The notes under the pieces were generated by a model, which worked only from the letters and a program-made list of their open reading frames with translations, did no database searches and was not told where the DNA came from. A DNA stretch of 35,480 nt, taken from positions 1 to 35,480 of the forward strand of contig ONND01000019.1 in NCBI GenBank assembly GCA_900319105.1, in the 5' to 3' direction. Of the stretch, positions 1,581 through 32,811 are shown piece by piece; within the stretch, counting starts at the first letter, position 1; every line of letters starts with the position of its first letter. A program made the translations under genes and the position numbers. Source of the stretch: an uncultured Bacteroidales bacterium. GTDB taxonomy: Bacteria; Bacteroidota; Bacteroidia; Bacteroidales; Paludibacteraceae.

Positions 1581-1615
1581 ATTTATGATTTAGTCATTTA
1601 GACATTTGGCTATTT
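1581..1615. repeat. 7-bp tandem repeat between cassette genes (ATTTATG type)
   Basis: Five degenerate heptamers related to ATTTATG/ATTTAGT/CATTTAG. They cover the junction between the stop of the holin-like gene (1610) and the DUF5675 start (1572). This is one member of the window-wide set of heptamer repeats. Confidence 0.6.
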
Positions 1616-1804
1616 ATGACGATAGCGATAGTGATAATCCACTCCGATGAGGGCACCGGCGAAGGTGAGGGTTTCGCCGTAGGCTACGAGGAGCGAGGAA
1701 TCAATGATGCCGGCAGGGGGAAGTGCCAGCCCTGCTACAAGCAAGGCGCACCCGAAGATGCACATTGCTGTAGCGAGGATCAGTTGCAAAAGAGACTTTT
1801 TCAT
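1610..1804 (-). CDS. Holin-like small membrane protein (64 aa)
   Basis: Short protein with a basic start (MKKS), a hydrophobic helix at about residues 6-28, a Pro/Gly turn (PPAGIID), a second hydrophobic stretch at about 38-56 (LLVAYGETLTFAGALIGV) and a positively charged tail (YHYRYRHK). Size, two membrane segments and charged C-terminus fit holins. Similar proteins with the PPxGxID...AFGExxTFAGxLIG pattern are familiar from Bacteroidales beside amidase/lysis genes. It sits between the 103-aa gene (37 bp upstream) and DUF5675 (37 bp downstream). The holin role is inferred from architecture and context. Confidence 0.75.
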   Translation of the reverse strand: MKKSLLQLILATAMCIFGCALLVAGLALPPAGIIDSSLLVAYGETLTFAGALIGVDYHYRYRHK

Positions 1805-1841
1805 TGTACTGGACTTTTAATCCGCCATATATTGCTGATGC

Positions 1842-2153
1842 TTAATCTCCGAGTTTGGCATACTCCATTGCGAAGACGTATCCGCTGAAATCGCTGTACT
1901 TCTTCTGGCTCTTGAAGGCAGTGAGATACGCTGCTTTCTGGTCCGGGTCAGCGAGGGCGGTCTTGGCGTTGGCTCTGGCGGTGGCGAACTTGGTGCGCTG
2001 TGCCTGTTGGGCGGCAGTTGGTTCTTTGGTGGAGGGGTTACAGATCTTGCCAGAGAACACCTTGCCGTTCTTGCGGAAGAAATACATGTCGGAGTGGCTA
2101 CAGAGTTTGCCGCTCATGGACTCAATAAGTCCCATCGGTTTTACTTGTGACAT
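1842..2153 (-). CDS. Conserved small protein, first gene of the lysis-like cassette (103 aa)
   Basis: I recognise this as a recurrent Bacteroidales hypothetical but know no function. The N-terminal part reads GLIESMSGKLCSHSDMYFF; the middle is K/N/G-rich with a second Cys (GKICNP, near residue 38); the C-terminal half is helical and Ala/Gln/Lys-rich (AAQQAQRTKFATARANAK...), ending in an aromatic GYVFAMEY. It shares an overall plan with the last cassette protein (324-710), so the two may be distant paralogues bracketing the cassette. No signal peptide. It has a long leader: the likely promoter -7 box is about 250 bp upstream at 2401-2408. Confidence 0.8.
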   Translation of the reverse strand: MSQVKPMGLIESMSGKLCSHSDMYFFRKNGKVFSGKICNPSTKEPTAAQQAQRTKFATARANAKTALADPDQKAAYLTAFKSQKKYSDFSGYVFAMEYAKLGD

Positions 2154-2217
2154 TACTTTAGTTTTTTAGGGGCATCTACTGCCGCACCGTTCAGGGTCAC
2201 AAGTCAGTATGTGTGAC

Positions 2218-2236
2218 TAACAAACACGTTTGTTGT
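2218..2236. promoter_or_regulatory. Palindromic motif AACAAAC-AC-GTTTGTT
   Basis: Perfect 7-bp arms with a 2-base spacer (2219-2234), in the 5' leader of the cassette. An 18/19 identical 19-mer occurs at 28158-28176, just upstream of the NagZ-like gene. Possible shared operator or transcript structure; function unknown. The rest of 2154-2400 shows nothing else I can support. Confidence 0.35.
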
Positions 2237-2408: not shown

Positions 2409-2430
2409 CTACATTTGAGAGGGGCTCTTT

Positions 2431-2773: not shown

Positions 2774-2831
2774 AGTATTTGCTTGTTTGGGCGGTCGATA
2801 GAATCGACCTGAAATAAACATAGATTTTAGA

Positions 2832-3431: not shown

Positions 3432-6400
3432 TTATTTAAGTTTCTTTCCCGTAACATCATATTTCTCATTGTTGCGAATTATTACTACATGGTCATTTTC
3501 GATAATCTTATACGGACAGTTATCGCCGGGTTTGAGGATGACCGGCACCTTGAGCGAGCCATGGTGAGCATCTGCTACATAGCTAATCGGCATCTCACTC
3601 ATTAACGGCGTACCGTCTTCGGTCTCGAAGCGGAGTTCGCCAGCGTAGTCGCTTTGGATGGTCAGGAAGTAGAGGCTGTCTATCTTCGTCGCTACACCAA
3701 CTAATTCATCACCGATGTAAGCATTCACCTTTGTACATTGTACCTTGTCACTTTGTACTTTCGCTATCATCGTCATGTTAGTTGCCGCGTTTCCATGGAA
3801 AGCCGGTGCTTGCTTCGGAGCGTTAGCAGCTTTATTGTAGAAGTTGATAGTGACAGAGTCGGCACCCATGCGGCGGAAGAGATATCCTTCTCCCGGACGG
3901 AAGGCGGTGAGGTCACCTACCCATTTCTTATCGGCAGAGAAGTACGCGAAGCGGTCGTGTGCCTTGATCAGGTCACCCACAGACGCATGATCGTAATAGT
4001 CTGCTAAAGCCTCTGTGACAGGTGTCGATTGGTTGAGCAGACATGGGAGCGGACTCCATTGTCCGTTTCCGCGGAGCGTGACATGCATGTCTTTCTGCTC
4101 CAAAGGATCACCGCCGATGCGCAGGATATTACCGTTCTTGGCATATACCATGTACATCTGCTGATAGTCGAAGGCGGTGAGCGTACCCATAAACGCATCT
4201 TTCACTTCCGAATAGGTGCAGAACTGCTGTGAAGCGGGGTTCTTGATGAGGTCCCCTTCCGCCCAAGGTCCTTCAGCAGACATGTGGTCATTGATGAGCG
4301 TCGAATCCGGCAGGAGATTCAGGTTGAACGATATCCAGTTCCATCCGGTATTGAGCGCGATGTTCTGCGTCTGAGAACCGGAGGTTGTGAAGACGAGCGG
4401 TGTCGGATCACCACAACCATAGACGGCACCATGTGCGAAGGTAATCTTGCGACTCGGAGCGAGTTCAAGTATCTTGCCGGTTGATGCTTGCCAGAGTTGG
4501 AAGCGTATCTCCTTTTGATTCATGGCTTCGTTGCCGTGAACAGTCAGGAAGACTTCGGTCTTGCTGGTCAGTGCATCGAAGGCGATGTTCGCCATGCCAA
4601 CGCACTCGTTACGATAGAGGGCAATGACCTTGTCGTTGGCATCCGTATCGTAAATATTGCCAATCTTCACTTCACCGCATACGGACATATTAAGCGGATA
4701 GTTGTTCTTGTCCACCTCGTCGTACGGGCAGATAGCGGTTACGGTATATTCCACCAGCAGCGGTTCGCTCAGTCCGTTCTCGTCGGTGAGGTAGATATAG
4801 TCGGAATAAACACCCACCGGCATCTGTGCGTTGAATGTGAAGCGAACATTCTTGCTACTGATGGCATTGATAGCACCGTACGCTTCGCTGACCGTGAGCC
4901 AATCCGGCAGGGACTCGATGACGAACTGATGCCGGAGTCCGGTCTGGTTGAAGAAGGCGAAGTCAACGTTATAATTCGGTTCGGATGCTGCGTTACCGGT
5001 GATGGGGTACAGAGCCTCGAACGCCAGTTCGTTGTCGTACCACTTGAGGGCATTGCGATCGACCGTAGCCATCCACATGACGGGTGACGGCATGGGGTTG
5101 CCGTTGAGGTCCTCTACATCGCGCACAGTCACGAGAACAGGTTGATGGTTGATTTCGTAGTCCGCCATGTTGAGGTTGACAAGCAGTTCCTCGTTGTTAT
5201 ACGTCCAGTTGAACTTCAGCTTGCTGAGCAGACCGATGCCGCTGACCGGAGCGTAGCTTGCCTTATCGGCCATGCTTTCGACTTTCGACTTTTGACTTTC
5301 GACTACCAAAGGCACCACTTTGTCCACTATGTTACCGTTTGCATCTTTGAAGATACGCTGGTCATTGACGGAGAAGACGAGTTCGAGTACACCGTTGGGG
5401 TTCTGGATCTGCTCTTCGAACGGCAGGTATGCCATCAGACCCATCTCATCACCAAGCGGTTTGCGTGAGCCGAACTCGGAGATGAAGGTCTTGGGCAGTG
5501 CTTGCTCGAAGACGATGAACTCGTCGATGTTTCCTTCAAAGCCGTCGCCACCGAAGTACATATCGCCGGCTATACCTGTCAGACGGTCCGCAGCAAAAGT
5601 GACTGTCAGTTGGTTGTCCAGATAGACGGCGATGTTGTTATACGTGCGGTTAACAACAAGCACGAGGTGATGCCAAGTTCCATTTATGATTTGACGATTT
5701 ACGATTGACGACTGATCTCCGTAGTAGAAGATGAGTTTGCCTTCTTCGAGGGCGAAGCGTTTGTCGCCGGCACGGAAGATCGTACCATTGCTGCTCGTCG
5801 GGCGGAACCATAACAAGTAGGTGGCGTCGTATGCGGCAGAGCGGGACAGTTTGTTGCGTTCAAGCGTTACGGTGTCGTTCTTGGTGAGGGCGAGCGAGAT
5901 ACCCTTCGGCAGGTTCCACGAAGCATTGTGCATCGTTAGCGTAGCACCGGAAGCACGGTCACGCAGTGTTGAGCCGGTGCCTTCGTTCATGCGGTAGTAA
6001 GCCATCAGTTCGCGTTCGTAACCGGTGAGGTAACGCTGGTTGGTAACGGTGATCTCTTCCTGCGTCAGCGCCTTGGTCCAGATACGGGCTTCCAGGATGT
6101 TCCCTTCCAAACCGCGACCAAAGAAGAGTTGGGCGTTGCTGATAGCTGATAACTGATAACTGATTACTGACTGCGCTGCTGTCACGTCGAGTGTGCCGGC
6201 GTAGAAGCGGACGGCGCTGGAGTCGTTGTTGTAAGTGACAGCCACGCGTGTGAACTCAAGCATCCTGTCAGGTAACTGTTTAGAATAGACGGTGCCGGAG
6301 TCACTCTGGAGGTAGAGACGGTTGTCGGCAGTCATACCGAAACGCAAGCCGTTCTCTCCATACGTAAAGAAGACGGCGGCCGCATTCGGGTTAGTCGGCT

Positions 6401-9400
6401 TAACCATCAGGTCGATGGTGAAGGAGCGGTTGGCGAGACTGCGGTTGACCATCGAAGCGGCGTATGAGTCGGCTGTGCCGTCGAAATGCGGCGAAGCGTC
6501 GGTAGTCGGACTGGTCTCATTGGTGATACCGATGAGTTGGAAGTTATTATCCTCGTCCAGCCAGTTACCGGCTATCGGTTCGCTGAAGCGCAGCTTGAGA
6601 TGATCGCCAATACCTAAGATACTGTTGGCAGGTTCAGGACTGCCGAACACTACCGGCGGACGGGTATCCTTGACACCACTCATCACAGGCGAAGCTTTCG
6701 TGACAAAGCCCGAGCCGAAGCGGCAGAAAGTCACGGCACGCAGGTCATAGTTGAGTTCCTTCGGGTCGCGTTCACCGTAGAAGCGGAACGGTACGATGCG
6801 TCCGTTCTCGATCATGGCTTTGTTGCCCGAAGCGAGGTTGTACAGGCTGTCGTCGGCATAGAACGAACACTGATTCACCCATGCGTCATCGCTCTCCGTG
6901 GAGAGTTTGTACTGGAACTCGATATGGTCGAAGTTCTTATGGTGAATATCAAATCCGTCAATCTCAACAGGCAGGTAATAGCCGATAGAGTCATGCGGCG
7001 AGAGGGTGTTCATCACCCAGTTCTGACGCGGCGAAGTGATTTCTACAGGACTGGAAACCGGCAGGAAATGGACGGAGAAATTGAGGTTGGCGAACGTGAT
7101 GGGACAATCGGCAAGGCCGAGGTTAAGCGTCAGGTTCTCATAGTCATCCACTGTTCCCCGCTCCACCTCCAGGGTCTTGGTGACAGGCACGCCCGGCGTG
7201 AGGAAGAAGCCTATCGACTGCGTGAGCGGCTGACCGTCCATGGTGATACGTGCGCCGTTGGGGTTGGAGTTCGGATTGATGGACAGGTCGAACTGGTTAC
7301 CCATAGCGGCACGGCCGGTCTGGAGCGAGGAGTTGTTCATCAGCGTCACATGGAAGACGGCGCGTTTATCCGGCATGACGGCACTCTGCTCGTAGGTATC
7401 GATCGTCATTTCGGGCTTGCATACCCACTGGGTCTCATTGCTGATGACCGTTCCGGGGTTGTAGAATGTCGTTTTCTGTTCGTCCTCATGCGGGCAGTAG
7501 GTCGAACCGGCTACGGTATAGAACACATACGAGCCGTAGAGCAGGTCCGGATCATTGCTCGGTACACCCACCTTGTCACGTGTCACTGCCGTGGTGTCGC
7601 GCCAAACGCTGTCGGTGCGAGCACGATAGACAGCTACGGTCAGGTCACCCATGTTATCCGAATTGAGCGAGAAACCGCAGTTCTTCGTGACGGTCTTGGC
7701 ATGGTTCTTGTCGTAATTAGGCATATAATACGTAGTGGGTTCGATATTGAACATGAACTTCGACGCGTTGGTCTGCGAACCCATCTCCTGTATCTGGTTC
7801 TCTCTGGTGCGAGTTTGATCGCCCGGATCGTCCTGGATCTGCGATATATCCCCTATCTTATCCAATGCCGACTCCACCGTCTCGCCTATCTTATCCTTAC
7901 CCATCGTACCGAAGAAATTGGCGATGCTCTGCCAGCTGGACGCTAATTGCGAAGCAGCTAACGTAGCGCTGGAGGCTTGCTGCTGACCCCACAGTTTGGC
8001 GGACTGCGGCAGTTCGTTGTAGGCTGCGGTGGAAGCATATACATCGGAATGTGTGAAGCTGGCTCCGGCACTGATAGAATAGGTGCCTACCTCCGTACTC
8101 GAACCCGCCATACGGGCGTGTACTTTCTCCTTCTCGTTGCCGTAGAGTATAGCTATCCACTGGTATATCATGTTATCCAGCGCAGCAATACGGTTGGTAT
8201 AGACTTGGTCGTTATCCGGACAGATCATCTTGTACGAACCTTTCTTGATGGAATCGGTAGCAGCCGTCCGGTCGACGTTGCCGATATTCCAATAGACGGG
8301 TTCTTCCGTAGCGTTCGCATAAGCCTGTGCCTCCGCCGAGTCAGCGAAGTTCATCAGCAGGTTGCTGCGCTCGATAGCCAGTTTCGGAATGATACTGTTG
8401 ATCACGTAGTCCTGCGTGTAGGCGAAAGTATTGTTGACCTTCGATCCTAAGGCAGTCTTTTGTCCGGTGACAAGGTAATACTGCTTGCCGTCAGCGGCCG
8501 CACCCGAACCGAGCACCTTCATGATGCTGGCGTTGATAGCCGGTTGACGCACCTGGAAGAGGCTGTCGGAGATGACGGCTACGGCGTTGAACCGACCGGC
8601 CAACTGACTGATAGTCGTTCCGTAGAACACATCGGCGGGGGCACCTACATCCTGCGGCATCATACCCGGAGAAGTGGAGATACGGTTGTCGGTAGTGACG
8701 GTGTAGTTGTACATATATCCCCAACTCCAGTCATGACTGATAGGAATAGGAATAGAGAGCAGACGCGAGGTCTCGAAATTCGAACCCAGGTACGTACCGG
8801 CTCCTTGAGGAGCGGACACTGTACCTATATTCTGCGTCACCTTGACTCCTCTCATCAGTGTGATGTCTACACCCATATTCCAGTAGAAACTTTCACTATA
8901 GCCGAAGGTGTATGTCGAACCGGCATCTACCCAGGCTGTCGAACCCATACCGGCAGGGTCACGGATGATATCGAGCAGTACGATGGAACTCTCTGTATCG
9001 GTGAGGTTACCGCTCTCGAAGTCCACACCGCTGACGAAGGCGCTGAAGACGGTGGTCTCTACGGCCGTTCCTTCTGTTTTGAGCAGTGTGCTGACGTTGC
9101 GTAGGGCATTCGTGCCGCTGTTGTTGACGTCTATCTGATCTACCGTAAGCCATACAGCGCGGTTCTCACCTTTCTCGTCGAGCGCGAACTGCAGCGTGTC
9201 CATCTGGCTATGCAGACCATTATGGATAGTCACTTCGCCGCCGCGTTGTGCCACGCGATCGACGACGCCGCCGTTGCGGTTGTTGTTATAGAAATACTCT
9301 TCATACGCCCGTGCCACGAACTGGTACTTACGTCCGCTGAGGAAGACCGGATAACCCATCAGGTAGTTGACCGTACCGTCCGACTGCTCGGTGTACATCG

Positions 9401-12400
9401 CCACTTTGTCGCTCTGCGAACGGATAGAACTGAACTCCATTTCCGCTTCGCCGTAACCCTTACGCTCGATGCCGTAGAGGATCTGCGACAGGCCTACCAC
9501 TACCGGGTTGTGGTAGATACGGTCATAGACGGCGTTATAAGCGGTGGTGTATTGCTTATTGCTGTTCGTATTGGTCGTCAAGGTATCATGGATAATAGTC
9601 AGCGGTGCGTTCGTCAGGTCGAAAGTCTCAGCGCCTTGACCGGCGGCAAAGAGCGTCGCGTAACCCGTAGCTGTGGCTTGTACCACTTTGTATTTCGTCG
9701 GGAACAGATCCACGGCGTATTCACCCGTCCTGGGGTCGGGCTGGAGAATGATACGTTTCTTCTCGAAGAGGGTGTTGGTCACTACCTGTTTAGCGTTGAT
9801 ATCCGTATAGGAAACCTGCTGCTGCATCGTATCACGCGACAGATCATCGGGGTCGTGCACGAGTTGGGCGGTGTTGTCGCCTTCCAATTGGAGCACCAGT
9901 TGCAGGTTGTCACCGAGGTTGTTCTTGCCCAAACCGAAGCCGTGCTGCAGGTCACGCTGGTCGTTACCTCCGGCTACGCGGCCGACGAGACGTACCTTGG
10001 TCTGGTCGTAGAACCGTACACCGTCTAAGGGCTTGGTCAATGCAAAAGTATCTTTTCCTTGCTCCACATGCAGGATACCGTCACCTTCGAAGCTGTGCCC
10101 GGGCTTGAATACCTGCAGTTTGCAAGGCTGGCTGAGCGGCAGCACGAGTTCGAAATTACCGTCCGTACCAGTGGTGACAGGTGTGTTGTCGCGACGAACA
10201 GTATCGCCGTTCAAGAGGAACATCGCACCCGGCACAGGTATCGTACTCAGTTTATAGAGCACGCGACCGGAGAGGCGTGTGGAGGACGTGTTTACGAAGT
10301 CTATCACACTGCCAACTGCCTCAGCTACTGTCAGCGAGACGGTAGCCGAGACGGCAGAGGTGTTGTTATACGAGAATTTTCCGTATTGCGAAGTCGGAAT
10401 GATTGCGAAGTCCGTTCCGGTCGCACCATCGTAGGTCAGGCTGTCGAAGCGATAGAAACCGCTGGCATTGGTGATCATGCTATCCAGCACGTTGCCTGCT
10501 GCGTCCTGCAACACCACTTTGACGCCTGCCATGCCGCTGTTGTCGGTCATGCGGATGGTACCGGATATCTCGCCGTAAGGCGTACGCCAGCCTTCGGTGG
10601 TAGCGGCGTTGGAGGTCTTCTTTCCGTTGCAGGAGTAACTGGTCGCCACCGTGTAGTCGTAGTGCACATTGGGAAGAGCTGTGCGGTCGAAATAATCGGT
10701 GTTATCACCACGATAGAGCGTATCCGGACTGGCGTCACTGCCTTTCTTGACACGCGTCAGTACGTAACTGTCCACCGCTTCGCTATTCACCTGCCAGCGC
10801 AGCAGCACGCCGTTCTTCATCGCCGTCGAGGCATCGCCCTTCGTAGCCGTGAAGCGGGTGATGGTAGCCGACTCGTCAAAATAGAGATCCGGACCACTGA
10901 TGGTCTTCGGCTGCAGTTGCAATGAGTCGAACACATGCAGATCGGCTTCGCTCTGGTCAATGCGTACGTTGTACGAATAGTGCGAGCAGGCACGGTCGGC
11001 TACATCGCTGAACGTAGCTATCCACGAGCCATCCTCCTGACGACGGATACTGTCGGGCGGAACGATGAACTCCATCTCTTGCCCCGTCTCCTGTATCGTA
11101 CGCGTCACAACCAGCTTCGCCGAGTTGTCCCACATTGCCTTGGCGCCTTGGTACTCCTGCTGGTACTTAGCAGTAAGCAACGGTTTAAGGCTGTCAATCA
11201 AGTATTGTTGAAGTGCCGGAGTATAGGGATAAGAGGCCATTTTTGAACTCTCTTCTACGAATCCGTACCAACCTCTACTATCTTTTTCTATCCTATATTG
11301 GGTGTCATGATTAAGATAAATAGTCAAATGTTGGTTCCAGCCATCATCGAAGTACAATTCGGTACCTTTGGGCACTTTAAATTCTTGGTCTCCACTAAAG
11401 TATCCATACCTTTTTATGAACTTCATATCGGGTGCGCGCAAACTATAGCGGGGAGCAAACCAGCTCTCAGAGGGACGACCGGGATAGTCAATGATTCGAA
11501 AAATCACGGAGTCCTCAAACGTTTCCCATTTTTTCAGCTGCAGCGTATAGGCATCATCGTCGAAAGAGGCGGGAGGCGTACTACTGTTCTCTATCTTAAA
11601 GCGGAAATTAACCTTATGATTGTTCTCAAAGTCCGCATCCTTGGCATAGTTATCCTGCGTAGCAGCAAGCGGAGCCAGATAGTTGGCGTTTTGCAGCATT
11701 GTTGTTTTCACCAACTCGTTATTCCATCCCCAAACAGATGCAGACGCACGGCGGATACGGTAATACACCGGTACAGAAGATACTTGTACTTTTTCGTTGG
11801 TAAGCTCAACATCGATGCTGTACTTGGCGTTTCCATTCTGGTCATAGATGACATGGCTCTCATTCGGTGTATAGGTCGCATGATAATCGAACGTTTCCGT
11901 TTGTCCATGGGCATTTCCCGTCCAAGTGCTGCGGTTGTTGTCCACAAACTTGTAAGTACCCTTGTTGCGGGTCATGTTGGTAACTGTTACTTGCTGTGCG
12001 TCCGAGAAATCGGATTTCAGCGCCCGCTGGATCTCGAACATATCACCGTCCAGCAAATCGGCTAGTTGCGGGTTCTTGATATTCCAGGTCAGCACATGGT
12101 TGCCGGTATAGGTATCCGTATTATCCGTCTCAGCCGTTGCCGTAAAATCATAGATACGATGGTAAGGCAGAATATTGACCGTATTGGAATTGAGTTGCAC
12201 GCGCTCATGGGTCGTCGCATTGCGCTCCAGATCAAACTTAGCCGAGAAAGCCGGCTGCACGGTGTCGGTTGTCTCCACATAGATCATACCCGAACGCTCC
12301 TTTACCGGGATCAGCTTGCTTGAATTCAACGAACTATAGTAGCCATACACGTTCTGGAACGTCATATACGGCACTGCCGCTGCACCAAAGCCTGCTGCTG

Positions 12401-13177: not shown

Positions 13178-13543
13178 CTATTCCCATACAGGAACGAAAG
13201 GTTCGGCGACGGTGCCGAGGTGGGCATCGTTGGCGAACGTGAAGGCATCCTTCGCCTCGAAGAAGTTCTTGTAGTGCGCGGAGTAGTAGCGGAGTGTGAC
13301 GGCGCCTTCCGTTCCTGCTATATACAGGAAGAACAATCAATCGGAAGCCTTTTCAGGGTACTGTGCCTTCAGATCCACCTTGACCACAGCGGTCATCGAG
13401 GAGGTGAAGTCATTGTCCGCAGGAGCAGTCCAAACAGGACGCGCTTGGTCTGAAATAAATGTTTCCGGTTCGTCTTTCTTGCAGCCAACTAAAGTACAAA
13501 GGGACAAAGTACAAAGTACAAAGATATACAAATGTTTTTTCAT
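13178..13543 (-). pseudogene. Small lipoprotein copy 2, interrupted by an in-frame TGA
   Basis: The start MKKHLYIFVLCTLSLCTLVGC has a lipobox; the hydrophobic core of the signal peptide is encoded by a 7-bp tandem repeat (13491-13525). The product is nearly identical to copy 1 (CKKDEPETF, SMTAVVKVD) up to KASD, followed by TGA at 13337-13339. The next codon continues in the same frame with LFFLYIAGTEGAVTLRYYSA to a stop at 13178-13180. The central ECxG-containing segment is absent, as in copy 1, but the junction differs by 8 bp. It lies 41 bp before giant B and 145 bp after the BspA-like gene. The TGA appears to be created by the deletion joint; stop-codon recoding is not supported elsewhere in the window. 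A 68-residue lipoprotein fragment could still be made. Confidence 0.75.
13491..13525. repeat. 7-bp tandem repeat encoding a signal-peptide core (CAAAGTA type)
   Basis: Five heptamers (AAAGTAC, AAAGGGA, CAAAGTA twice, CAAAGAT). On the minus strand it is read as YIFVLCTLSLCTLV, the hydrophobic core of lipoprotein copy 2. Copy 1 has an unrelated signal-peptide sequence. Confidence 0.7.
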
Positions 13544-14918: not shown

Positions 14919-17900
14919 ATCTCTCATTATTTCTGATTATTACTACGTGGTCATTTTCGATAATCTTGTACGGACGGTTATCGCCTGGACGCAAGATAAT
15001 CGGTGCCTTGAGCGAACCATGGTGAGCATCCGCCACATAGCCAATCGGCATTTCACTCGTTAACGGTGTACCTTCTTCGGTCTCAAAACGGAGCGTACCG
15101 GCTGCATCGGACGAAACCGTCAGGAAATACAGGCTGTCTATCTTCGTGGCTACGCCAACGAGTTCGTCGTCGATGTAAGCATTCACCTTTGTACATTGTA
15201 CATCGTCACTCGCAACTTGACAGATCATCGTCATGTTGGTAGCAGCATTGCCGCTGAACTTCGGTGCGTGTTGCGGAACTGCATTAGTGACCTTGTTGAA
15301 GAAATTGATCTCCACATCACCGGTGCCGAGGCGTTTGAAGAAGTATCCTTCGCCCGGGCGTAGCACAGTGAGGTCACCTTCCCAATGCTTGTCAGTGGAG
15401 AAGACGGCGAACCGGTCATGACTCTTCAGCAGGTCGCCTACTGTAGCATGGTCGTAGTAGTCTGCCATAGCTTCTGTAATCGGTGTGCTCTGGTTGAGCA
15501 GACATGGCATCGGGCTCCATTGACCATTGCCGCGCAGCGTCACGTGCATCGAGTCTTCCGGCAGTCGGTTGCCACCGAGCCGCAAGGTGTTGCTTGAGGC
15601 GGTATAGACCATATATACCTGCGTATAATCCCACGCGGAGAGTGTACCCATGTACATATCCATCGTTTCGGAATAGGTGCTGAACTGCATCGTCGCGGGG
15701 TTCTTGATGATGTCGCCTTCTTTCCACGGTTCAGCCGCCGTCATGACGCTGTTGAGTGCAGCCGTTGCGGGTTGCAGGTTGAGATTCGTGGATATCCAGT
15801 TCCATCCGGCATTAAGGGTGATGTTTTGCGTCTCTGACCCCGATGAGGTAAAGACTACAGGTTGTTCTTCACCGCATCCATAGACATATCCGTGTGCAAA
15901 GAGTATCTGACGGTTCGGCGCAAGCATCAGCACCTTACCGGTAGAAGCCTGCCATAGTTGGAAGGTAATTGCCTTGTTGTTCATAGCTTCGTTACCATAG
16001 ACAGTCATATAAACCTCCGACTTGTTAGTTAGATTGCTAAATGCCACATTCGCCATACCGACGCACTCGTTGCGGTAGAGGGCAATAACTTTGTCATCGC
16101 TGTCTGTGTCGTAAACGCCGTCAATGATAACTTGTCCGCAAATGGACATGTTGAACGGATACCTGTTCTTGTCCGGTTCCTCGTACGGGCAAACGGCAGT
16201 AACATGATAGGTCACTTTCAGCGGTTCGGAGAGTCCGTTCTCGTCGGTTACATACACCATATCGGTATATTCGCCCACCGGCAAAGTGGTGTCGTAATAG
16301 AATCTCACGGTGTAGTCATCGATAGGCTGAATAGTGCCATATTGCTGCTCAACGGTGAGCCAGTCGGGCAAGGACTCGATGGTGAACTGGTGGCGTTTGC
16401 CGCTGTTGTTGACGATGCGCATATCGCGATAGTTGTAGTTGTCAAACTCCGAACCATAGGTTTGCCATAATTCCATTGTCCGGCTATCCCAAGTCAGACT
16501 GTTGCGGTCCACGTATGCCACCCACGTTACCGGCGAAGGCATCGGGTTACCGTTGAGATCCTCTACATCGCGTACGGTGACATAGACAGTCTGCTTGTTA
16601 ATTTCGCGGTCATGCATAAGCAGGTTGATGAGCAGTTCGTCTTGGTTGAATGCCCAGTCGAAGTTGAGTTTCGAGAGCAGTGCGTTGCCTGCCACAGGAG
16701 CATAGTTTGTCTTGTCAGCCAATTCATTTACCATTTTACCATTTACCATTTTCTCATTTATGAGCGGCACCTCTTTGTCCACTATGTTCCCGTTCGGGTC
16801 TTTGAAGACTCGTTGGTCGTTGGGACTGAATACCAATTCAATGACACCGTTGGCGTTCTGCTTCTGCTCTTCAAAAGGCAGGTATGCCATCAGACCCATC
16901 TCGTCGCCTACCGGTGAATGGTTGCCGTATTCCTCAACAAGCGTCTTTGGCAGAGCCTGCTCGAAGATGGCGAACTCATCAATGTTTCCTTCAAAGCCGT
17001 TTCCGCCGAAGTACATTGCTCCGGTGATACCAGCCAGTTCGATGGCAGCAAAGGTGGCAGTCATTTTGCCGTCAAGGAATACTGACACGTTATTATAAGT
17101 ACGGTTAACAGAGAGCGCAAAGTGGTGCCATTCGTTATCCTTTATTTGCCCGACAGAGGTTATCAATTGGTCGGAGTGCAGCACGAGGTTTCCGTCCACT
17201 AATGTCAGCAGTGTACCTATTGAGTCATTGGCTCTTCCGGCGGAGAAGATGTCTCCTGTATTGCTTGTTGGGCGGAACCAAAGCATCAGCGTCTCGTCAT
17301 AAACCTTAGAGCGTCCGAGCAGGTTACCGTTGAGTTGAACGCGCTCTCCGCTATTGATGGCAAGTGAAATGCCTTTGGGCAGATTCCACGTGGCGCCATG
17401 TAATGTGAGCGTAGCACCTCCGGCTTTGTCGGTAAGTTGCGTCCCATGCCCTTCAGCCATCTGATAGTACGCCACGAGTTCGAGCTCGTAGCCGGTGAGA
17501 TAGTGCATGTTGGTGGCGGCTACTTCTTCCTGTGTGAGGGCTTTCGACCACAGACGCAGTTCGAGCATGTTTCCGTCAAGTCCACGTCCGAACACGAGCG
17601 GTGCGCTTACATCATACGTCGTACCTGCCGGCAACTTAGCGGCATTAGGGTCAGTCATATCCATCGTACCGGCGAAGAAGCGTATCTCGTTGGTCTCGTT
17701 GTTATAAGTGACGCACACGCGGGTGAAGTCGAGCATCGTATCGAGCGGCTTGGAGTAGATTTGCAACGTACCAAAGCCGACCATTAGGCGGTTGTCGGCG
17801 GTCAGTCCGAAGCGCACGCCTGTGCCGTCAGTACCATGTTCAAAGAAAGTATGTTCTCTGTTGGCGGCTGTTGGTTTGACGAGCATATCGAGCGTGAACG

Positions 17901-23900: not shown

Positions 23901-25374
23901 AATTAACCCTGCGATTATTTTCATAGTCAGCATCGAGGGTATATGGCTCTTGATTGTCAGCAAGCGGTGCAAGGAAATTCATATTCTGAAGCGTAGCCGT
24001 ATGCACAAATTCGCTATCCCACCCCCATACAGATGCCGAAGCCCGGCGCACACGATAGAAAACGGGAACGGACGGCATCAGGATATGGTTAGACATCAGC
24101 TTGACGCTCAATTCAGCCAGTGGCTCATTGTTGGTATCATATAGCGTATAATGTGGGTCTGATACATTGTAATACCTTTCATCATACACCACATCCTGCG
24201 ACTGAGCGTTGCCCGTCCAAGAACTTCGGTCGCTGTCGGTGTAGGTATAAACGCCCGATGAGTCGCGCTTCATCTGCACAATACTGATACGCTGTGCATC
24301 GCTAAAGTCGCTCTGCATAGCGCGTTGCAACTCAAAATAGTCACCATCTAAGATGTCTTTCAAGAAAGGATTTTTGATTGACCACCGAAGGATATTATTG
24401 CCGGTGAAGGTTCCGGTGCTGTCTTTTTCTGTCCTTGCAGCAAAGTTATAAATGCGGTGATAAGGCAGAATATCAACATCGGTGGTGGTTACCTCCATCG
24501 TTGATTCAGTGTCAGCATTGCGCACCACGGTGAAAGTGGCAGTGAGGTTTTTCTGCACCGTGTCGTTGGTCGGTATATAGATAGTACCAGAACGCTCAAC
24601 ATCCCTTGACACCACTTCTGACGGATTGAACGAAGTGTAGTAACTGACGGGGTCTTGAAACACCATATACGGCACTGCTGCATAGCCATAACCAGCCACA
24701 CCCTTCTCGTTAAAAGTATATAGATATGGGGTGTATAATTGCGGTGATATAGTGTTTGTCTTACATGTCAGGTTACTTGCAAGCGTCCAAGAATAGTTAT
24801 ACCATTCATTCTTAGACTTCGACCAGCGAATAGACACTGTTATACCTACGCTGAAAGTATCTTTTTCTAAAGATATAGGCGGATACCAATCCAACTCAAG
24901 GAAGGTAACATGGTCGTTGCCGTCTGCCTCTTTCTGAACTACTATCAGCTTGTCAGACATAGTGCCATTGTCGTGAATATGATGGTTGACACCATTTGCC
25001 ATCGAGGTAACGATGATGTCGCCCATGCCGTTTAATAGTTTGACGTGGGCTGTACCTTTGTCAGAGTCTTTCTCGTTTTCGTCATACGGGTCGGAGCAGA
25101 AATTGGCAAAGGTAGTTTTGGTATCACTACCTTTTTTTTGATACCAGATGGTACTTGACTCGTGGATATAGAAGTCGTAACTCTTTCCATACGCCCATAC
25201 CGGCAGGACGAAATGTACACGATCTACTCCGGTCGGGTAGGCTTTGTAATGATCCTCTTTCTCCAAATAGTCATTAGCATACGCACCCTGCGGAGTGAAC
25301 CACAAGGCACATAATATCAGCAGTGCGCCACATCCCTGTAGCCACCGACTTTTGGTGTTCGATAATAGTTTCAT
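14890..25374 (-). CDS. Giant secreted multidomain surface protein A (3494 aa, LamG/FN3/CarboxypepD_reg)
   Basis: The signal peptide is cleaved near AYA-NDYLEK (residue 33). The plan is that of giant B: unique N-terminal region, Fn3-like domain, carboxypeptidase-regulatory-like repeat (GEISGTILMPDNTGMAGVTV, about 962-1010), a second one near 1150, central region with GSYVFYTVAGSTYCPHE, SbsA-type Ig-like domain (about 2408-2450), two LamG domains (about 2466-2833), BACON-like domain (about 2991-3058), AGWNWISTNLNL region (about 3183) and two ECxG-type beta domains. The C-terminus is VVIIRNNERYDVTGKKLQ. It exceeds B by 260 residues, mainly from Cys-containing modules at about 500-732 (CFRVVTANGSVYQDW..., YSVTKDGKNYTQG...) and about 1010-1125 (FRVLDANGNVLEDW...), the latter inserted into the carboxypeptidase-regulatory domain. 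No enzymatic motif was seen. It starts 105 bp after preA; whether it has its own promoter is unclear. Confidence 0.9.
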   Translation of the reverse strand: MKLLSNTKSRWLQGCGALLILCALWFTPQGAYANDYLEKEDHYKAYPTGVDRVHFVLPVWAYGKSYDFYIHESSTIWYQKKGSDTKTTFANFCSDPYDENEKDSDKGTAHVKLLNGMGDIIVTSMANGVNHHIHDNGTMSDKLIVVQKEADGNDHVTFLELDWYPPISLEKDTFSVGITVSIRWSKSKNEWYNYSWTLASNLTCKTNTISPQLYTPYLYTFNEKGVAGYGYAAVPYMVFQDPVSYYTSFNPSEVVSRDVERSGTIYIPTNDTVQKNLTATFTVVRNADTESTMEVTTTDVDILPYHRIYNFAARTEKDSTGTFTGNNILRWSIKNPFLKDILDGDYFELQRAMQSDFSDAQRISIVQMKRDSSGVYTYTDSDRSSWTGNAQSQDVVYDERYYNVSDPHYTLYDTNNEPLAELSVKLMSNHILMPSVPVFYRVRRASASVWGWDSEFVHTATLQNMNFLAPLADNQEPYTLDADYENNRRVNFRFKIENKEPTGAVIDKDDCTLSCYINKVLRESMVNVTIKYSMLEADYNKVNPEGSTCFRVVTANGSVYQDWTYLNAGTYQFPMNSTVQVKNTHGYCYNNGEESRHTLTGNTVIDCSTEPFAHGASMFEATFTVQSSNTVASITTDDSEYVEVYVKYVVQGDVASPENGTTYSVTKDGKNYTQGRYLLSGWYQFPKNSRMDIYNNEDGNFEWTFYMPFILTESCEITIYAYPQSGKRKLDAQMVKASQSQVDENVATEIRNLLYTVKDSLIKLMPREVKPEDYGRCMWDKTAQLILLRTIEETGQTMEFIIPQDSIRRQADGSWIATYSDIANQGCSHYKYSIRIDQSRSDLHVQDSASLRPIEISGPSLYFDEAATITSFVASQGDATTAMKAGVLLRWLASSNAVDEYILLRKAVGSDEAADTIYHGTDNSYIDRSAMPNTHYEYTIQTQYVCNGKSTGNYATAEGWRTPYGEISGTILMPDNTGMAGVTVALQDGSGNTIRTMTTNASGAYKFDSLEYAALECEKAKVKITYSSNFGMNTPEKQTQFRVLDANGNVLEDWNSKNEGTYEYAVGTVLQVQSISPLCSSAISSFTVTGHFSIDCSYTHYQIGILNQINFSATATEPTECQCTNTDLSGYVVVPTHQYGTFSFNSSSAGTASISLSTNNAVASGIDFMNTSSTRLTGRVLYKNSTIPVAGAMFLLNGDTVRRGNTPLTSGIDGNFELILPLHQPCRLQVFKPGHVFEGDGILRVEDGEEEFALAKALDGVRFYDQTKVRLVGRVAGGNDQRDLPRGFGLGTNNLGDDLQLVLQLEGDNTAQLVHDPDDLSRDTIQQTISHIVYLTDSLAVNKERIVGTTHTLFEKKRITIHPDSETGEFEVDLFPVKYKVIQATATGYATLFGTGQGSETFDLTNAPLTEYIGNCNKTAETITVVQKSNDEQFVSNYPYTGGIASQGGLLDGDSIHYNAVYDCIYHSPVVVTLKQVLYGLDKAGYGEEEMEVSSLNLQDKQKVSLYEKQSDGSVTYLLGHPVFIANRKYQFIAEAFERYYYNNDPLSGVLDEVPQRGGSVRVHNGLKSATTYQDYTLDSKGQNKSVILEVEDIDTENSGESALRTVSTALQVEGNYVETEVFQAFVSGTDIQNGDLTSADSEVVLLDIVRDPGGNGSSAWVESGTTYNYTYTETYDWKIGVELTPKWGVNVSQDIGAVAAPEGAGSYIGSTYESSRQLSFTLPITHEWKWGYKYNYTFTTTDRISTSSSKAKDNVSSNGDVFLGTTIRQLAGKAKTVSIISDSMFIARQPAFNAGLMKILSQGTDSNGKHYYLVTGQKVVLGSLVAGTFVYTQYYILNTLIPQLALERQNLLMNFDSEEAAQAYADQTGEPVYWYYSSDDKVSLIDSLPYNTYKMLTPTNSDHAYINRVAALDNMITQWVTILYQNEKEKVMARMAGSEVGTWSVSSGATITHTDTYNASAQYNEMPQGGDLVGSYWSSNSAKVGQKLLKDMKNIVKFFKDMGKDQIGTTVAQAINGLARPEGQGVGADPTDREEQQSLGTKTNTSKFSLDYNPIFSYDNNMNSAQEQTVKKTSGFTLGADSHGDITVSVYRAPYDSVWDTRTEFIRENVGEADNDDLHYGSYVFYTVAGSTYCPHEAEEKTQFYNEGTILNNETQWVDKPEMSIDTYEQTGVQPDKRATFRVTLMDKGQVQTGLGASGTLFNFALWADSNPDGAKVYVDGAPLINAIPVFLVPGQAVVKTIEVERGTVDDYDNLTLALSLADCPKTNTRLKFSVHFLPVSSDVSISMPRQNWIMNTLSAHDSVGYYLPVEIDEFDIHHKNFDHIEFQYKLSTQSEDDWVNQCSFYASDSLYQFATGNKAMIRNGRIEPFRFYGERDPMEQQYDLRAVSFCRYGSGFVTKSSPVISGTKDTRPPRVFGEPEPVNAILGVGDNLKLRFNEPIAGNYLDPDNNFQIKGVTNATGITTAASVHFDGTAESYAISQVSRSLSGRSFTLDMLVKPTAANREHTFFEHGTDGTGVRFGLTADNRLMVGFGTLQIYSKPLDTMLDFTRVCVTYNNETNEIRFFAGTMDMTDPNAAKLPAGTTYDVSAPLVFGRGLDGNMLELRLWSKALTQEEVAATNMHYLTGYELELVAYYQMAEGHGTQLTDKAGGATLTLHGATWNLPKGISLAINSGERVQLNGNLLGRSKVYDETLMLWFRPTSNTGDIFSAGRANDSIGTLLTLVDGNLVLHSDQLITSVGQIKDNEWHHFALSVNRTYNNVSVFLDGKMTATFAAIELAGITGAMYFGGNGFEGNIDEFAIFEQALPKTLVEEYGNHSPVGDEMGLMAYLPFEEQKQNANGVIELVFSPNDQRVFKDPNGNIVDKEVPLINEKMVNGKMVNELADKTNYAPVAGNALLSKLNFDWAFNQDELLINLLMHDREINKQTVYVTVRDVEDLNGNPMPSPVTWVAYVDRNSLTWDSRTMELWQTYGSEFDNYNYRDMRIVNNSGKRHQFTIESLPDWLTVEQQYGTIQPIDDYTVRFYYDTTLPVGEYTDMVYVTDENGLSEPLKVTYHVTAVCPYEEPDKNRYPFNMSICGQVIIDGVYDTDSDDKVIALYRNECVGMANVAFSNLTNKSEVYMTVYGNEAMNNKAITFQLWQASTGKVLMLAPNRQILFAHGYVYGCGEEQPVVFTSSGSETQNITLNAGWNWISTNLNLQPATAALNSVMTAAEPWKEGDIIKNPATMQFSTYSETMDMYMGTLSAWDYTQVYMVYTASSNTLRLGGNRLPEDSMHVTLRGNGQWSPMPCLLNQSTPITEAMADYYDHATVGDLLKSHDRFAVFSTDKHWEGDLTVLRPGEGYFFKRLGTGDVEINFFNKVTNAVPQHAPKFSGNAATNMTMICQVASDDVQCTKVNAYIDDELVGVATKIDSLYFLTVSSDAAGTLRFETEEGTPLTSEMPIGYVADAHHGSLKAPIILRPGDNRPYKIIENDHVVIIRNNERYDVTGKKLQ
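16723..16763. repeat. 7/8-bp tandem repeat in giant A (TTACCATT type)
   Basis: About five units of ATTTACC/ATTTTACC, read in frame as NEKMVNGKMVNE (residues about 2871-2884). It occupies the same linker as the CTTTCGA-type repeat of giant B, so the two paralogues hold unrelated heptamer repeats at one site. Confidence 0.7.
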
Positions 25375-25478: not shown

Positions 25479-26939
25479 TTATCTTGTTTTCTTTATACGT
25501 TTGGCAAGGCCGATAGCGCCGGTGGGGCAGACGAGGCGGCAAAGATGGCATCCGACACATTTGGAGCCGAGGATGCGCGGCTGGCGGTCCGCATCAAAAC
25601 TGATTGCTTGGTGGCCGCCGTCCATACAAGAGACATAGCATCGCCCGCAACCGATACATTGCTTGCGGTTAACCATCGGATAAACCATCGTCTCGCGGTC
25701 GAGGTCGGAGGGCAGAACGATATTCGGCAGTTCCTCGCCTACAAGTTTTTTCAACTCCGTAATGCCGCGGGAAGCCATGTAATGCTGCAGCCCCAGGGTC
25801 AGATCATCAATGATCCGGTAGCCGTACTGCATCACGGCGGTGCAGACCTGCACGTTTCGGCAACCGAGCTGGATGAACTCTAGTGCGTCGCGCCAAGTCT
25901 CAATGCCTCCGATACCGCTGATATCCATGTGCTTCTCAATGCCGGCTTTTTGCAGAATCGGATTGCCTGTCATCTCATGGATCATCCGAAGGGCGATAGG
26001 TTTGACTGCCTTGCCCGAATAGCCGGATACCGTCTTTTTCTCGCTCACCTCGGCATCGTGACTCATGGTGATCGATTTGATTGTATTGATAGCACTGATG
26101 CCTGACGCTCCGGCATAAAAGCAAGCAAGCGCAGGAGAGGTCATTGACATCACATTCGGCGTTATCTTCGGGATAACAGGTATCTTCACCGCATCGCGTA
26201 CGTACGAGGTATAGAATAGAATCAGTTCGGGGTTCTGTCCTATATCGCTTCCAAGCCCCGTGAGCCGCATCTGCGGGCACGAGAAATTCAGTTCCACAGC
26301 ATCGCAACCTGCCTCCTCCGCCATCTTTGCCAACTCAATCCACTCCTCCTCGGTCTGTCCCATGATCGAAGCGATGATGCGTTTGGCAGGATAGTTCTGT
26401 TTCAAACGGCGAAGAATATCAAAATCCTCTGTGTACGGGTTCTCGCTGAGCTGCTCCATGTTGCGGAAACCGACAAAAGGCGTTCCCTCTTTGCGGACAG
26501 CATCGAAGCGCGGCGAGACTTCACGTATATCCGCCTTGGTGATGGTCTTGTAGAACACACCCGCCCATCCGGCTTCCAACGCGCGCGCCACCATGTCGTA
26601 GTTGGTGCAGATAGCCGATGAAGCCAGGAAGAACGGATTCTCGCAGATCATGTCGCAGAAATTGAGTTTCAGCGAAGGCAACTCCGACGGCTGATGGCTG
26701 AATTCTGACGGCTGACAGCTGACGGCGTTCGCCAACTCCGCAATTCTTATCGGTTTGTCATAATGGATACAGGAAGCCTCGGCATGAGCCAATTCTTCGT
26801 CGCTCATGGCGTTGAATAGCTTAGCCGCCGTCCAGAGATTATCAAACCGTGCCGCACGGATTGCGCGTGCTACTTTAGCGCCGCAGGGTGCATCGTGGCA
26901 CAGGAGGCAGCGAGCCGCTTCTTCATTGATGTGTAACAT
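25479..26939 (-). CDS. preA: PreA-like NAD-dependent dihydropyrimidine dehydrogenase subunit (486 aa)
   Basis: The protein has three parts. Residues 1-70 contain CLLCHDAPC, the first half of the N-terminal Fe-S motif typical of the partner subunit PreT, but without the usual following ACP cysteine. Residues about 90-400 are a dihydroorotate-dehydrogenase-like FMN barrel (CENPFFLASSAICTNYDM, ELNFSCPQMRLTGLGSDIGQ, ISGIGGIETWRDALEFI). The C-terminus has two 4Fe-4S clusters, C428/C431/C434/C438 and C461/C464/C467/C471. In E. coli PreAT reduces uracil and thymine with NADH; no preT is present in this window, so electrons must come from elsewhere or the role differs. A 42-bp heptamer repeat encodes a linker (residues 72-86) between the first two parts. 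It starts 7 bp after the NagZ-like gene, so the two are probably co-transcribed. Confidence 0.88.
   Translation of the reverse strand: MLHINEEAARCLLCHDAPCGAKVARAIRAARFDNLWTAAKLFNAMSDEELAHAEASCIHYDKPIRIAELANAVSCQPSEFSHQPSELPSLKLNFCDMICENPFFLASSAICTNYDMVARALEAGWAGVFYKTITKADIREVSPRFDAVRKEGTPFVGFRNMEQLSENPYTEDFDILRRLKQNYPAKRIIASIMGQTEEEWIELAKMAEEAGCDAVELNFSCPQMRLTGLGSDIGQNPELILFYTSYVRDAVKIPVIPKITPNVMSMTSPALACFYAGASGISAINTIKSITMSHDAEVSEKKTVSGYSGKAVKPIALRMIHEMTGNPILQKAGIEKHMDISGIGGIETWRDALEFIQLGCRNVQVCTAVMQYGYRIIDDLTLGLQHYMASRGITELKKLVGEELPNIVLPSDLDRETMVYPMVNRKQCIGCGRCYVSCMDGGHQAISFDADRQPRILGSKCVGCHLCRLVCPTGAIGLAKRIKKTR
26684..26725. repeat. Exact 7-bp tandem repeat in preA (CTGACGG type)
   Basis: Six uninterrupted heptamers (CCGACGG, CTGATGG, CTGAATT, CTGACGG, CTGACAG, CTGACGG). 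Reading a 7-bp repeat in frame gives a heptapeptide period, QPSEFSH then QPSELPS. It lies precisely in the interdomain linker of a metabolic enzyme. Confidence 0.8.
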
Positions 26940-31291: not shown

Positions 31292-31346
31292 CGTATATAA
31301 ATTTAAATTTTTTACAAAATCACAATAATGAAATTATCCTATGACC

Positions 31347-32780
31347 CTAGTGCCCTAGTTCTTTTCCCAATAGATCATACCTCTTTCCGCCGCGGAGGAT
31401 GTAGATCTGTCCGTCTATGAGCATTTTTACTCCCTCTTCCGGTGCAATGGCAGGGGTGAGGTTGTCTGTATCCTCTCCCAAGCCCATCGTGTATGCAACC
31501 CAAGCATTGGGAATACCGAAGCCCATCTGGTTATTCGGGTCATAACTCGGGTATAAATGTGCCGATTGAATAATCAGGTCGCGTATCTGCATCGCGTTTT
31601 TGTCCGGCAGTGCGGACCATAGGCTGGCAGCCATGCCGGCTAACAGAGGCGTAGCAAAACTGGTTCCGTTGCTGCGCTCAATCGCGTTGCTGAACGGATT
31701 GATCAGAACGGACTGCACACCTACTGCGCACACTTCCGGTTTGATACGTCCGTCCGACGAAGGACCGTAACTGGAGAAGTCGGCAGCGACGCTGTCGGTT
31801 CGTACGGCTCCGACGGTCAGAATACTGTCTGCGTCTGCCGGAACACTAATCGTGCGCCATGCGACATCGCCTTCATTGCCGGCTGCGACGCAGACCAACA
31901 TACCTTTGCGTGCAGCAATAGTGGCTGCGCGGCTCACGCGCGTCGTTTTGCCGTCTAAATCATTCCATTTGTTCAAATCCCATATCGGGTTGTCGAATTG
32001 TGCGTAACCGCCCGAGAAGGAGAACACATTGACGCCTAATGAATCGGCTTTCTCCAGTGCCGCCACCAGATTGTCCATTTCTTTGGGGCTCTCGGTGGCG
32101 TATTCTTCGGAGCGCATCAAGTAATAATCGGCTTTTGTCGCTGCGCCGTAATAGCCGTCTTGTATGCCGCTGATGGCGCTCAGGCACTCGCTGCCGTGAT
32201 CTCCGGTATTACCATAGAAATCATCGGTGTCGTCCGTGAAATCGAAATGCCCCAATTCCTGTGTCTGCCGGAAACATCCCATGGTGTTGGCATTGGTAAA
32301 CCCGCCGTCGCAAACGGTCATCAGAATCCCTTGTCCTTCGTATCCTAAATCGTGCAGCGGCGTGAGGTTATAGAGCGCTAATTGTTGGTCCGTGTAGCGG
32401 ACATTGATGGATGATTGGTGATGGGCGATGGGTGATTGGTGACGGCTAAGGGCTCTTTTGCGCTGGCTATAGAGGGAGCCGCTTTCGTCTCGTGTCAACT
32501 CGACGGCGGTGACGAAACTTAAACTCTCCACCTCGGCAACTTTGGCGCTATCCATCTCTACCGTGGCGCCGTTGAACCAGCGGCTCGTGTGGTGGATCTT
32601 AATGTCTCTTGCGCGCAGACTGTCCAAATAAGCGGCACATACGGGATAATCCATCTCGTCCGTCGGAATATGCCATTTGGCGCGTTGCTCTACGGCGCGT
32701 GGCGATAAAGCCGGTGCACTCTTCTCCGGCTTGTCCAAGAAGGACACAAAATAGATATATAAAATTACTAACAAATACAT
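31347..32780 (-). CDS. S8 subtilisin-like serine peptidase (477 aa)
   Basis: The full catalytic triad is visible: Asp158 in VCDGGF, His195 in DHGSE, Ser374 in GTSFATP. The DGGF form is typical of a Bacteroidota branch. The propeptide-like N-terminus (VSFLDKP...LSPRAVEQRAKW...YPVCAAYLDSL) is followed by a linker made of a heptamer repeat (SRHQSPIAHHQSS, residues about 112-125), then the protease. The C-terminus GQIYILRGGKRYDLLGKEL is the shared tag. The annotated ATG gives a hydrophobic MYLLVILYIYFV, a poor signal peptide. A good one is encoded upstream in the same frame (32873-32802) but is separated by two in-frame stops within a heptamer repeat. Export of this enzyme may therefore be impaired, or the short hydrophobic start may serve. 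Confidence 0.9.
   Translation of the reverse strand: MYLLVILYIYFVSFLDKPEKSAPALSPRAVEQRAKWHIPTDEMDYPVCAAYLDSLRARDIKIHHTSRWFNGATVEMDSAKVAEVESLSFVTAVELTRDESGSLYSQRKRALSRHQSPIAHHQSSINVRYTDQQLALYNLTPLHDLGYEGQGILMTVCDGGFTNANTMGCFRQTQELGHFDFTDDTDDFYGNTGDHGSECLSAISGIQDGYYGAATKADYYLMRSEEYATESPKEMDNLVAALEKADSLGVNVFSFSGGYAQFDNPIWDLNKWNDLDGKTTRVSRAATIAARKGMLVCVAAGNEGDVAWRTISVPADADSILTVGAVRTDSVAADFSSYGPSSDGRIKPEVCAVGVQSVLINPFSNAIERSNGTSFATPLLAGMAASLWSALPDKNAMQIRDLIIQSAHLYPSYDPNNQMGFGIPNAWVAYTMGLGEDTDNLTPAIAPEEGVKMLIDGQIYILRGGKRYDLLGKELGH
32406..32447. repeat. Exact 7-bp tandem repeat in the subtilase gene (GATTGGT type)
   Basis: Six uninterrupted heptamers alternating GATTGGT, GATGGGT/C and GACGGCT. In frame it gives a heptapeptide-period linker between the propeptide and the catalytic domain. 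Confidence 0.8.
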
Positions 32781-32783
32781 GAT

Positions 32784-32811
32784 GATTTACGATTTGACGA
32801 TTTACGATTTT
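32784..32811. repeat. 7-bp tandem repeat between signal-peptide ORF and subtilase
   Basis: Four heptamers (GATTTAC, GATTTGA, CGATTTA, CGATTTT), ending 3 bp before the subtilase ATG on the minus strand. It shares 19 bp with the repeat at 5681-5715 in giant B. In the subtilase frame it contributes two TAA stops. Confidence 0.75.

Follow-up and report, generated by a model that had tools for sequence, protein, structure and literature searches.

The window analysed here is the whole 35,480-nucleotide stretch of contig ONND01000019.1 (assembly GCA_900319105.1) from the 2.26 Mb genome of an uncultured Bacteroidales bacterium of the family Paludibacteraceae, and the elements under study are short tandem arrays of 7-bp units (heptamer arrays), most of which lie within its genes. 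Two paralogous giant open reading frames (ORFs) of 3234 and 3494 aa extend over positions 3432-13136 and 14890-25374; both match Laminin_G_3 and CarboxypepD_reg, SdrD_B being above its cut-off only in the longer ORF, and a 436-aa LamG fragment has relatives in 77 of 178 genomes of the same genus, many of them in open frames of more than 3,000 codons. At higher coordinates lie the genes of a DHO_dh/Fer4 protein and of a protein with a subtilase domain. An earlier note on this DNA had listed ten 7-bp arrays, and these sites were scored with Tandem Repeats Finder (TRF) at a minimum score of 30. The sites are as follows, and each carries a period-7 TRF row unless otherwise indicated.

1581..1615, no strand assigned: marginal, nearer to period 8 (weak period-8 TRF row) and not counted as a period-7 array
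3729..3763, minus strand: array with coding unit AAAGTAC/GTACAAA in the 3234-aa ORF (AKVQSDKVQCTK)
5275..5305, minus strand: array AGTCGAAAGTCAAAAGTCGAAAGTCGAAAG, peptide VESQKSKVES, with exact copies across the genus
5681..5715, minus strand: array with coding unit ATCGTAA and 7/8-bp spacing
6139..6173, minus strand: array with coding unit TTATCAG (the published TAACTGA unit), peptide QSVISYQLSAIS
13491..13525, minus strand: array encoding the hydrophobic part of MKKHLYIFVLCTLSLCTLVGC, at the start of the 68-aa ORF 13543-13337
16723..16763, minus strand: array with coding unit ATGGTAA in the 3494-aa ORF
26684..26725, minus strand: array CCGTCAG in the linker of the DHO_dh/Fer4 protein (486 aa)
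32406..32447, minus strand: array CCCATCA/CCAATCA in the linker preceding the subtilase domain
32784..32811, minus strand: array TCGTAAATCGTCAAATC immediately before the subtilase start codon; it falls short of the threshold of the self-match detector used as a second method

Nine of the ten sites thus display period 7 by TRF (rows at 3729, 5275, 5682, 6139, 13491, 16725, 26686, 32405 and 32784), and an extra short row at 15189-15203 is absent from the earlier list. The remaining site, 1581-1615, proved weak and closer to period 8, with 13/28 matches at lag 7 against 19/27 at lag 8. A second method, a self-match detector, missed sites 1581 and 32784 as their 7/8 spacing lies below its threshold. 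The placement of eight of the ten arrays inside genes was borne out, seven being in ORFs and the eighth (13491-13525) in the 68-aa minus-strand ORF, the start of which looks, in our reading of its sequence, like a lipoprotein signal peptide. The description of the units as unrelated was partly wrong: unit CTTTGTA at 3729 is the reverse complement of that at 13491, ATTTACG is common to 5682 and 32784, and CATTTAC (16725) is one base off. Additionally, the position of the 16723 array is homologous, by alignment, to that of the 5275 array in the paralogue, and in an alignment of five sequences of the LamG region, which is otherwise well conserved, three array positions are among the most variable columns. 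When matches were sought elsewhere, nine of the ten window sites beat all 15 shuffles, eight of them by two or more and 1581 by one (26/35 versus a shuffle maximum of 25). The 3729 array matches a different locus of its own genome (L009) at 32/35 positions (shuffle maximum 24) and the 13491 array another (L012) at 33/35 (shuffle maximum 27); the 32406 array, with a best match of 30, does no better than its shuffles at their maximum and is outscored by a neighbouring non-array stretch (35).

The heptamer arrays are real and are confirmed not to be an artefact of chance or composition. In the window, the self-match detector found eight period-7 arrays versus a mean of 0.17 (maximum 1) in 200 dinucleotide shuffles, and seven arrays inside ORFs versus a mean of 0.1 (maximum 2) in 200 codon shuffles; the shuffled control that had been named beforehand as capable of overturning the observation therefore left it standing. 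Other periods in the window, namely 11 (5), 14 (4), 15 (3) and 6 (3), also exceed the shuffles, although less strongly. Across the window plus 400 kb of the same genome (435 kb), 50 period-7 TRF rows were obtained versus 0, 0 and 0 in three shuffles, the second commonest period being 11 with 19 rows. Furthermore, period 7 is the commonest period in each of the four genomes of the genus that were scanned by period, for which shuffles gave none. One 11-bp tandem repeat (GTATAGCAAGG) lies at window 34834-34860 and has one unit more in genomes G160 and G004. An attempt to detect decayed arrays by genome-wide autocorrelation was uninformative, codon periodicity dominating the signal.

Arrays occur at a density of one per 4-9 kb in five sampled genomes of the genus (166 arrays in 1,035,480 bases), a sample biased in that four of the five (G035, G026, G032 and G001) were chosen for pattern matches. 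At a stricter threshold, four genomes yielded 37 arrays in 435 kb, 51 in 200 kb, 14 in 120 kb and 10 in 80 kb. The order sample, comprising 261 kb in 20 stretches from other families (two of which are N throughout), contained six arrays, four of these in two stretches picked for pattern matches. The pattern RTCAGNNRTCAGNNRTCAG is present in 31 of 61 genomes (the own genome and relatives), one genome having 183 matches and several nearly complete genomes of the genus none. The reversed pattern is absent from most genomes, yet in G007 it gave 17 matches versus 36 real ones. Some viral contigs also carry AGTCRAA arrays (36 stretches) or RTCAG arrays (at least 120). The 166 arrays are built from 76 consensus units, and their span is narrow, 117 of them measuring 28-40 bp. 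Among the first 132, 87 lie inside stop-free frames (mechanically defined, at least 150 codons), 28 at the edges of such frames and 17 in intergenic DNA.

Units are drawn from a restricted repertoire and are reused. Two arrays have the same unit in 3.2% of comparisons within a genome and 1.0% between genomes, compared to 0.1% in both cases for random genomic 7-mers and 0.6% and 0.15%, respectively, for base-shuffled units. In the pyrimidine-rich orientation the first 132 arrays conform to a skeleton, YYNKYMA, with 3.37 bits versus 2.49 +/- 0.07 (maximum 2.59) in 20 column-permuted sets. Phases are concentrated to 0.563 at array starts and 0.625 at array ends, the null mean being 0.396; in 2000 random draws the maxima were 0.568 for starts and 0.563 for ends, such that the ends exceed all draws and the starts come close. 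The proposal that a constant 7-bp period combined with varied units indicates a common generating process is supported in the sampled genomes, while its corollary that no single mobile sequence is involved is too simple: exact imperfect arrays recur in many species at loci without flank similarity, indicating that specific array sequences spread or are regenerated.

This recurrence is evident at several levels. Comparison of the 166 arrays with one another gave 68 pairs that agree at no less than 93% of positions across 28 bp or longer. In ten of these pairs the two sequences do not differ at all over 28-35 bp, eight of the ten consisting of imperfect arrays, and no flank similarity is apparent in the 60 pairs displayed. 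The exact imperfect 30-mer of the 5275 array, which includes one deviant unit, occurs 234 times (by addition of the per-genome table) in 57 of the 178 genus genomes, its reversed control being zero. With R at four positions the 30-mer is found in 83 of the 178 genomes, the reversed control being non-zero in a few, and in the wider order in 4 of 393 genomes, two of which belong to the genus itself; the order-wide search, too, gave a few matches to the reversed pattern. Thirty distinct copies were inspected, consisting of that of the window and fetched loci, one per genome; frequency statements on them are limited as they were chosen by sequence pattern. Within that limit, 24 of the 30 lie in one and the same open frame (at least 120 codons, array strand), which reads VESQKSKVE followed by S or R; two of these 24 (L277 and L281) look like one site in two genomes. 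Of the other six, one begins immediately behind a stop codon in a different frame, in two the only open frame runs in the opposite direction, and three lack an open frame. Family searches of 13 of the 15 listed ORFs identified MutY, HisRS, LeuRS, a Mur ligase, a PotC-like permease and an MFS transporter as hosts, further hosts being an ABC-transporter subunit, two hydrolase-like proteins and MurF-Alr (at two different places in two genomes); the host ORFs of L263 and L267 gave no family match, L267 against NCBIfam only. Base frequencies in the flanks of the 30 copies are mostly 0.3-0.6, the highest being T at -1 (57%), A at -16 (63%) and C at the base after the array (73%), and inspection of these sequences revealed no terminal inverted repeats, target-site duplication or conserved flanks. 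Taken together, these data suggest that short stretches of proteins in one Bacteroidales genus are continually rewritten by a copying process with a 7-base step.

There are also signs that selection acts on the peptide which an array encodes. In unambiguous coding copies fetched by pattern, the deviant A follows the reading frame, being present in 33 of 48 cases at the middle of a CRA codon versus 4 of 63 at the first codon base and 10 of 47 at the third. This G/A variant is thus frame-bound, and Gln replaces Arg in a unit otherwise read as CGA; since CGA represents 10% of Arg codons, codon rarity alone is a weak explanation for Gln. Orientation was evaluated for arrays located in ORFs after the first ATG, to the exclusion of 16 that precede the first ATG and 55 that have no ORF: 13 of 37 T-rich arrays lie within the first 40 codons compared to 3 of 58 A-rich arrays (Fisher p = 3.6e-4). 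The mean hydropathy of the T-rich N-terminal arrays is 1.82 versus -1.3 for A-rich arrays elsewhere, and approximately 10 of the 13 resemble signal peptides by eye.

Comparison of relatives indicates that the same site may carry different heptamers. In the DHO_dh/Fer4 linker, assessed by eye for 29 aligned of 30 genus loci, heptamer arrays are present in 8 (types CCGTCAG, AAGTACC, ATCCTAA, AGCTAAC and GCAATCA) and no clear array in 21. The subtilase linker, likewise judged by eye and measured in 29 of 30 loci, carries arrays in 12 (CCCATCA, TCAGCAT, CTGTCAG, TCAGGAG, GGCGAAA and ATGGCGA) and none that is clear in the remainder. Even among subtilase relatives at 96-98% protein identity, half of the array is made up of one unit type in G000 and G157 and of another in G176 and G160, and the G175 array lacks one 7-bp unit and has one additional G relative to G176/G160, a net change of -6 that keeps the frame. 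The spacer before the subtilase ATG carries other heptamers in more distant species, and several species lack the spacer. At the 5681 position L006, whose gene is ~81% identical, carries an equally long array of the AACGGCC/AACGGCT type, at 6139 it has a CAATCAG-type array, and at 16723 G175 has an ATTGGTG-type array with diverged sequence adjoining. The HisRS loop, judged by eye in 30 loci of the 57 genomes with a match, is plain (similar to IEATGVKLN) in 13, carries an array in 9 and is unclear in 8; the array types at this same place are AGTCRAA, ATTGNAN, TTTGTCA/TCAATTG and ACTCTCA, within a segment of 42-57 aa. The placement of arrays in loops is based on sequence alignments only.

Phase variation by unit number was considered and is not supported, as the compared alleles keep the frame across the array. 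One subtilase allele, that of G176 (L205, ~97% identical to the window's), has an in-frame stop eight codons before the array, the only one among 30 loci; this stop does not derive from unit number since the array has the same length in G160. None of the 30 HisRS loci has a stop. As for the relatives themselves, a contig of G175 matches most of the window at 96-99% identity, and the own-genome stretch L023 is only ~72-77% identical to the genome of L005, a contrast that would reflect either mosaic inheritance or a mis-binned contig.

The reading that we favour, with a probability of about one half, is templated copying in a 7-nt register together with copying from array to array, filtered by peptide selection, such that the arrays form a self-renewing population. 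Arrays would be made and rewritten during DNA synthesis: we infer that the nascent strand slips by one whole unit and that occasional template switching carries the sequence of one array to another. Mismatch repair is not known to correct slippage steps of 7 nt, and the step size would allow the changes to escape it. New arrays would then survive where they are in frame and their peptide is tolerable, the purine-rich orientation yielding hydrophilic segments and the pyrimidine-rich orientation hydrophobic ones suited to N-terminal signal peptides, and spacers before start codons would accept several kinds of array. If this is correct, one lineage continually builds peptide segments of housekeeping proteins by tandem copying at the DNA level, and provides a natural system for watching the origin of loops and signal peptides between close relatives; why units of 7 bp predominate among the long simple repeats of bacteria, a long-standing question, could also be tested directly.

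Several observations weigh against copying and template switching of this kind. Among the compared relatives, no case was found in which a whole array had recently been gained cleanly at a site that is empty but otherwise identical in another genome: the HisRS array replaces loop sequence, with a net gain of 12 nt over the common length, and an array of G160 near 16118, absent from the window, has diverged surroundings too. Several allele differences, for example that of L007 at 6139, represent ordinary homologous recombination tracts. The frame-locked variants speak against verbatim copying being sufficient, and it must therefore be combined with selection. Finally, no polymerase, template RNA or recombinase was identified, and no search aimed at them was made. 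The L007 tract spans ~200-300 bp (within window 5850-6500) and swaps the 6139 array allele for a different one in an otherwise nearly identical stretch. The pairs considered for clean gains were not near-identical throughout, G031 and G035 being 96% identical over an 863-base contig end but 66-81% over 20 kb, and G004 sharing 13 kb of the window at 99.7% with long matches to L023 at 72-78%.

A bolder version, which we hold only tentatively and consider clearly less probable, is a dedicated DNA-writing process that lays ~33-bp heptamer cassettes from a shared repertoire into enzyme loops, signal-peptide cores and pre-start spacers. Such a process, if true, would keep supplying new protein segments throughout the genome, with selection sorting frame and hydropathy.

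Plain replication slippage, by which the polymerase slips by 7 nt and any local heptamer grows without copying between loci, appears unlikely as a full account. An excess of heptanucleotides and the polymerase-footprint hypothesis of Mrazek (2007) are in print, as described in PMC4679880 and PMC4692102, and both the whole-unit difference in G175 and the HisRS ATTGNAN arrays, which run into a TTGAATATTGAATTGG-like stretch of the conserved part, are compatible with slippage. However, reuse of units within a genome is ~30 times that of random local seeds (3.2% versus 0.1%), end phases are common to arrays, and identical imperfect arrays stand at unrelated loci, one 30-mer recurring 234 times across the genus.

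Improbable, too, is that function of the peptide or RNA is the driving force, in which case selection would repeatedly build working linkers, signal peptides and pre-start sequences with the DNA repeat as a by-product. The frame-specific variants, the N-terminal bias of T-rich arrays with its difference in hydropathy, the arrays directly before start codons and the translational regulation suggested for TAACTGA by MacGregor (PMC4679880) agree with this explanation; conversely, arrays outside genes (the intergenic and edge cases above) and the many species without a clear array at the same place do not, nor would selection for many different peptides be expected to yield one constant period in the DNA.

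We regard as hardly probable a very small mobile element, i.e. ~33-bp cassettes inserted by a dedicated enzyme in the manner of the in-frame Rickettsia palindromic elements (RPEs). The same sequence and peptide in unrelated enzymes, the narrow span and the existence of a distinct element, an 84-bp hairpin with inverted heptamer arrays on either side, are compatible with insertion, while the lack of any conserved flank, terminal repeat or target duplication around the 30 copies, the 76 different units and the replacement, instead of block insertion, in HisRS are not. Chance or composition is by now refuted as an explanation of the array population overall. It is true that short degenerate repeats invite over-reading (e.g. 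site 1581) and that reversed controls of degenerate patterns are not always zero (e.g. G007), but the two shuffle controls and the absence of the reversed exact 30-mer from all 178 genomes leave this explanation next to no weight.

The hairpin element is a dispersed sequence of ~84 bp (CAAAGGGCT...AGGACGCTTTGT) with NNACAAT-type heptamer arrays on both sides in inverted orientation (L023:12146-12280). The element occurs in the own genome, and further copies lie in L129 (two) and in 18 stretches of G083 and G085 (L149-L166); the presence of arrays beside the copies is partly ascertained because the search query included arrays. In three of four folded copies the arrays extend the hairpin, and a comparison with Rfam gave two matches, both far below gathering scores. 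That most arrays constitute the ends of a composite inverted element was rejected: the loosest threshold gave 204 arrays and 38 pairs with members no more than 400 bp apart, of which 8 pass the similarity cut and 4 of these 8 are inverted. A GC-rich repeat with units like GGTCTGTCAGCNNAGC, observed at L015:7252-7331, at L023:620-700 and in the preA linker of one species (L087), represents a second type of in-gene repeat.

Cyanobacterial short tandemly repeated repetitive (STRR) sequences, or heptanucleotide long simple sequence repeats, have 7-bp units, several types per genome and short arrays, and are mainly intergenic. The arrays described here resemble them in having 7-bp tandem units above chance, several unit types and short arrays; they differ in location, 87 of 132 being inside stop-free frames, and neither in-frame use in housekeeping enzymes and signal-peptide-like segments nor identical arrays across many species of one genus features in the STRR descriptions available to us. 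Haemophilus HMW1A-type phase-variation repeats are 7-bp tandem repeats that change by whole units, whereas the alleles compared here keep frame across the array. Miniature inverted-repeat transposable elements and transposons are distinguished by the terminal inverted repeats and target-site duplication that were not seen around the 30 copies. RPEs are palindromic elements of ~150 bp which encode a conserved peptide in frame in unrelated housekeeping genes, according to PMC10969869; in-frame location inside unrelated genes is common to both, but the present arrays are ~33 bp, tandem, not palindromic and of many unit families. Heptamer repeats of GGGNATC have been described in Xanthomonas and Nostoc (PMC4692102). 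Another close parallel is TAACTGA, reported in Beggiatoaceae, Cyanobacteria and five Bacteroidetes including Paludibacter propionicigenes (MacGregor 2015, PMC4679880), with other heptamer repeats mentioned beside it in Gramella, Aequorivita and Elizabethkingia. As this is the unit of window 6139, the view of the earlier note that there is no named Bacteroidales equivalent was only partly right. Some published copies lie in ORFs as LSVISYQ repeats; in BOGUAY, the main genome of that study, there is one unit, mostly intergenic before start codons, and related heptamers are rare, whereas here the 166 arrays comprise 76 distinct consensus units and most arrays lie inside stop-free frames. A literature search of papers outside subscription retrieved no description of these arrays in this genus and nothing closer in Bacteroidales. 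Heptamer arrays as such are known, from TAACTGA and STRRs, and it is their diversity of units and their use within genes that look new.

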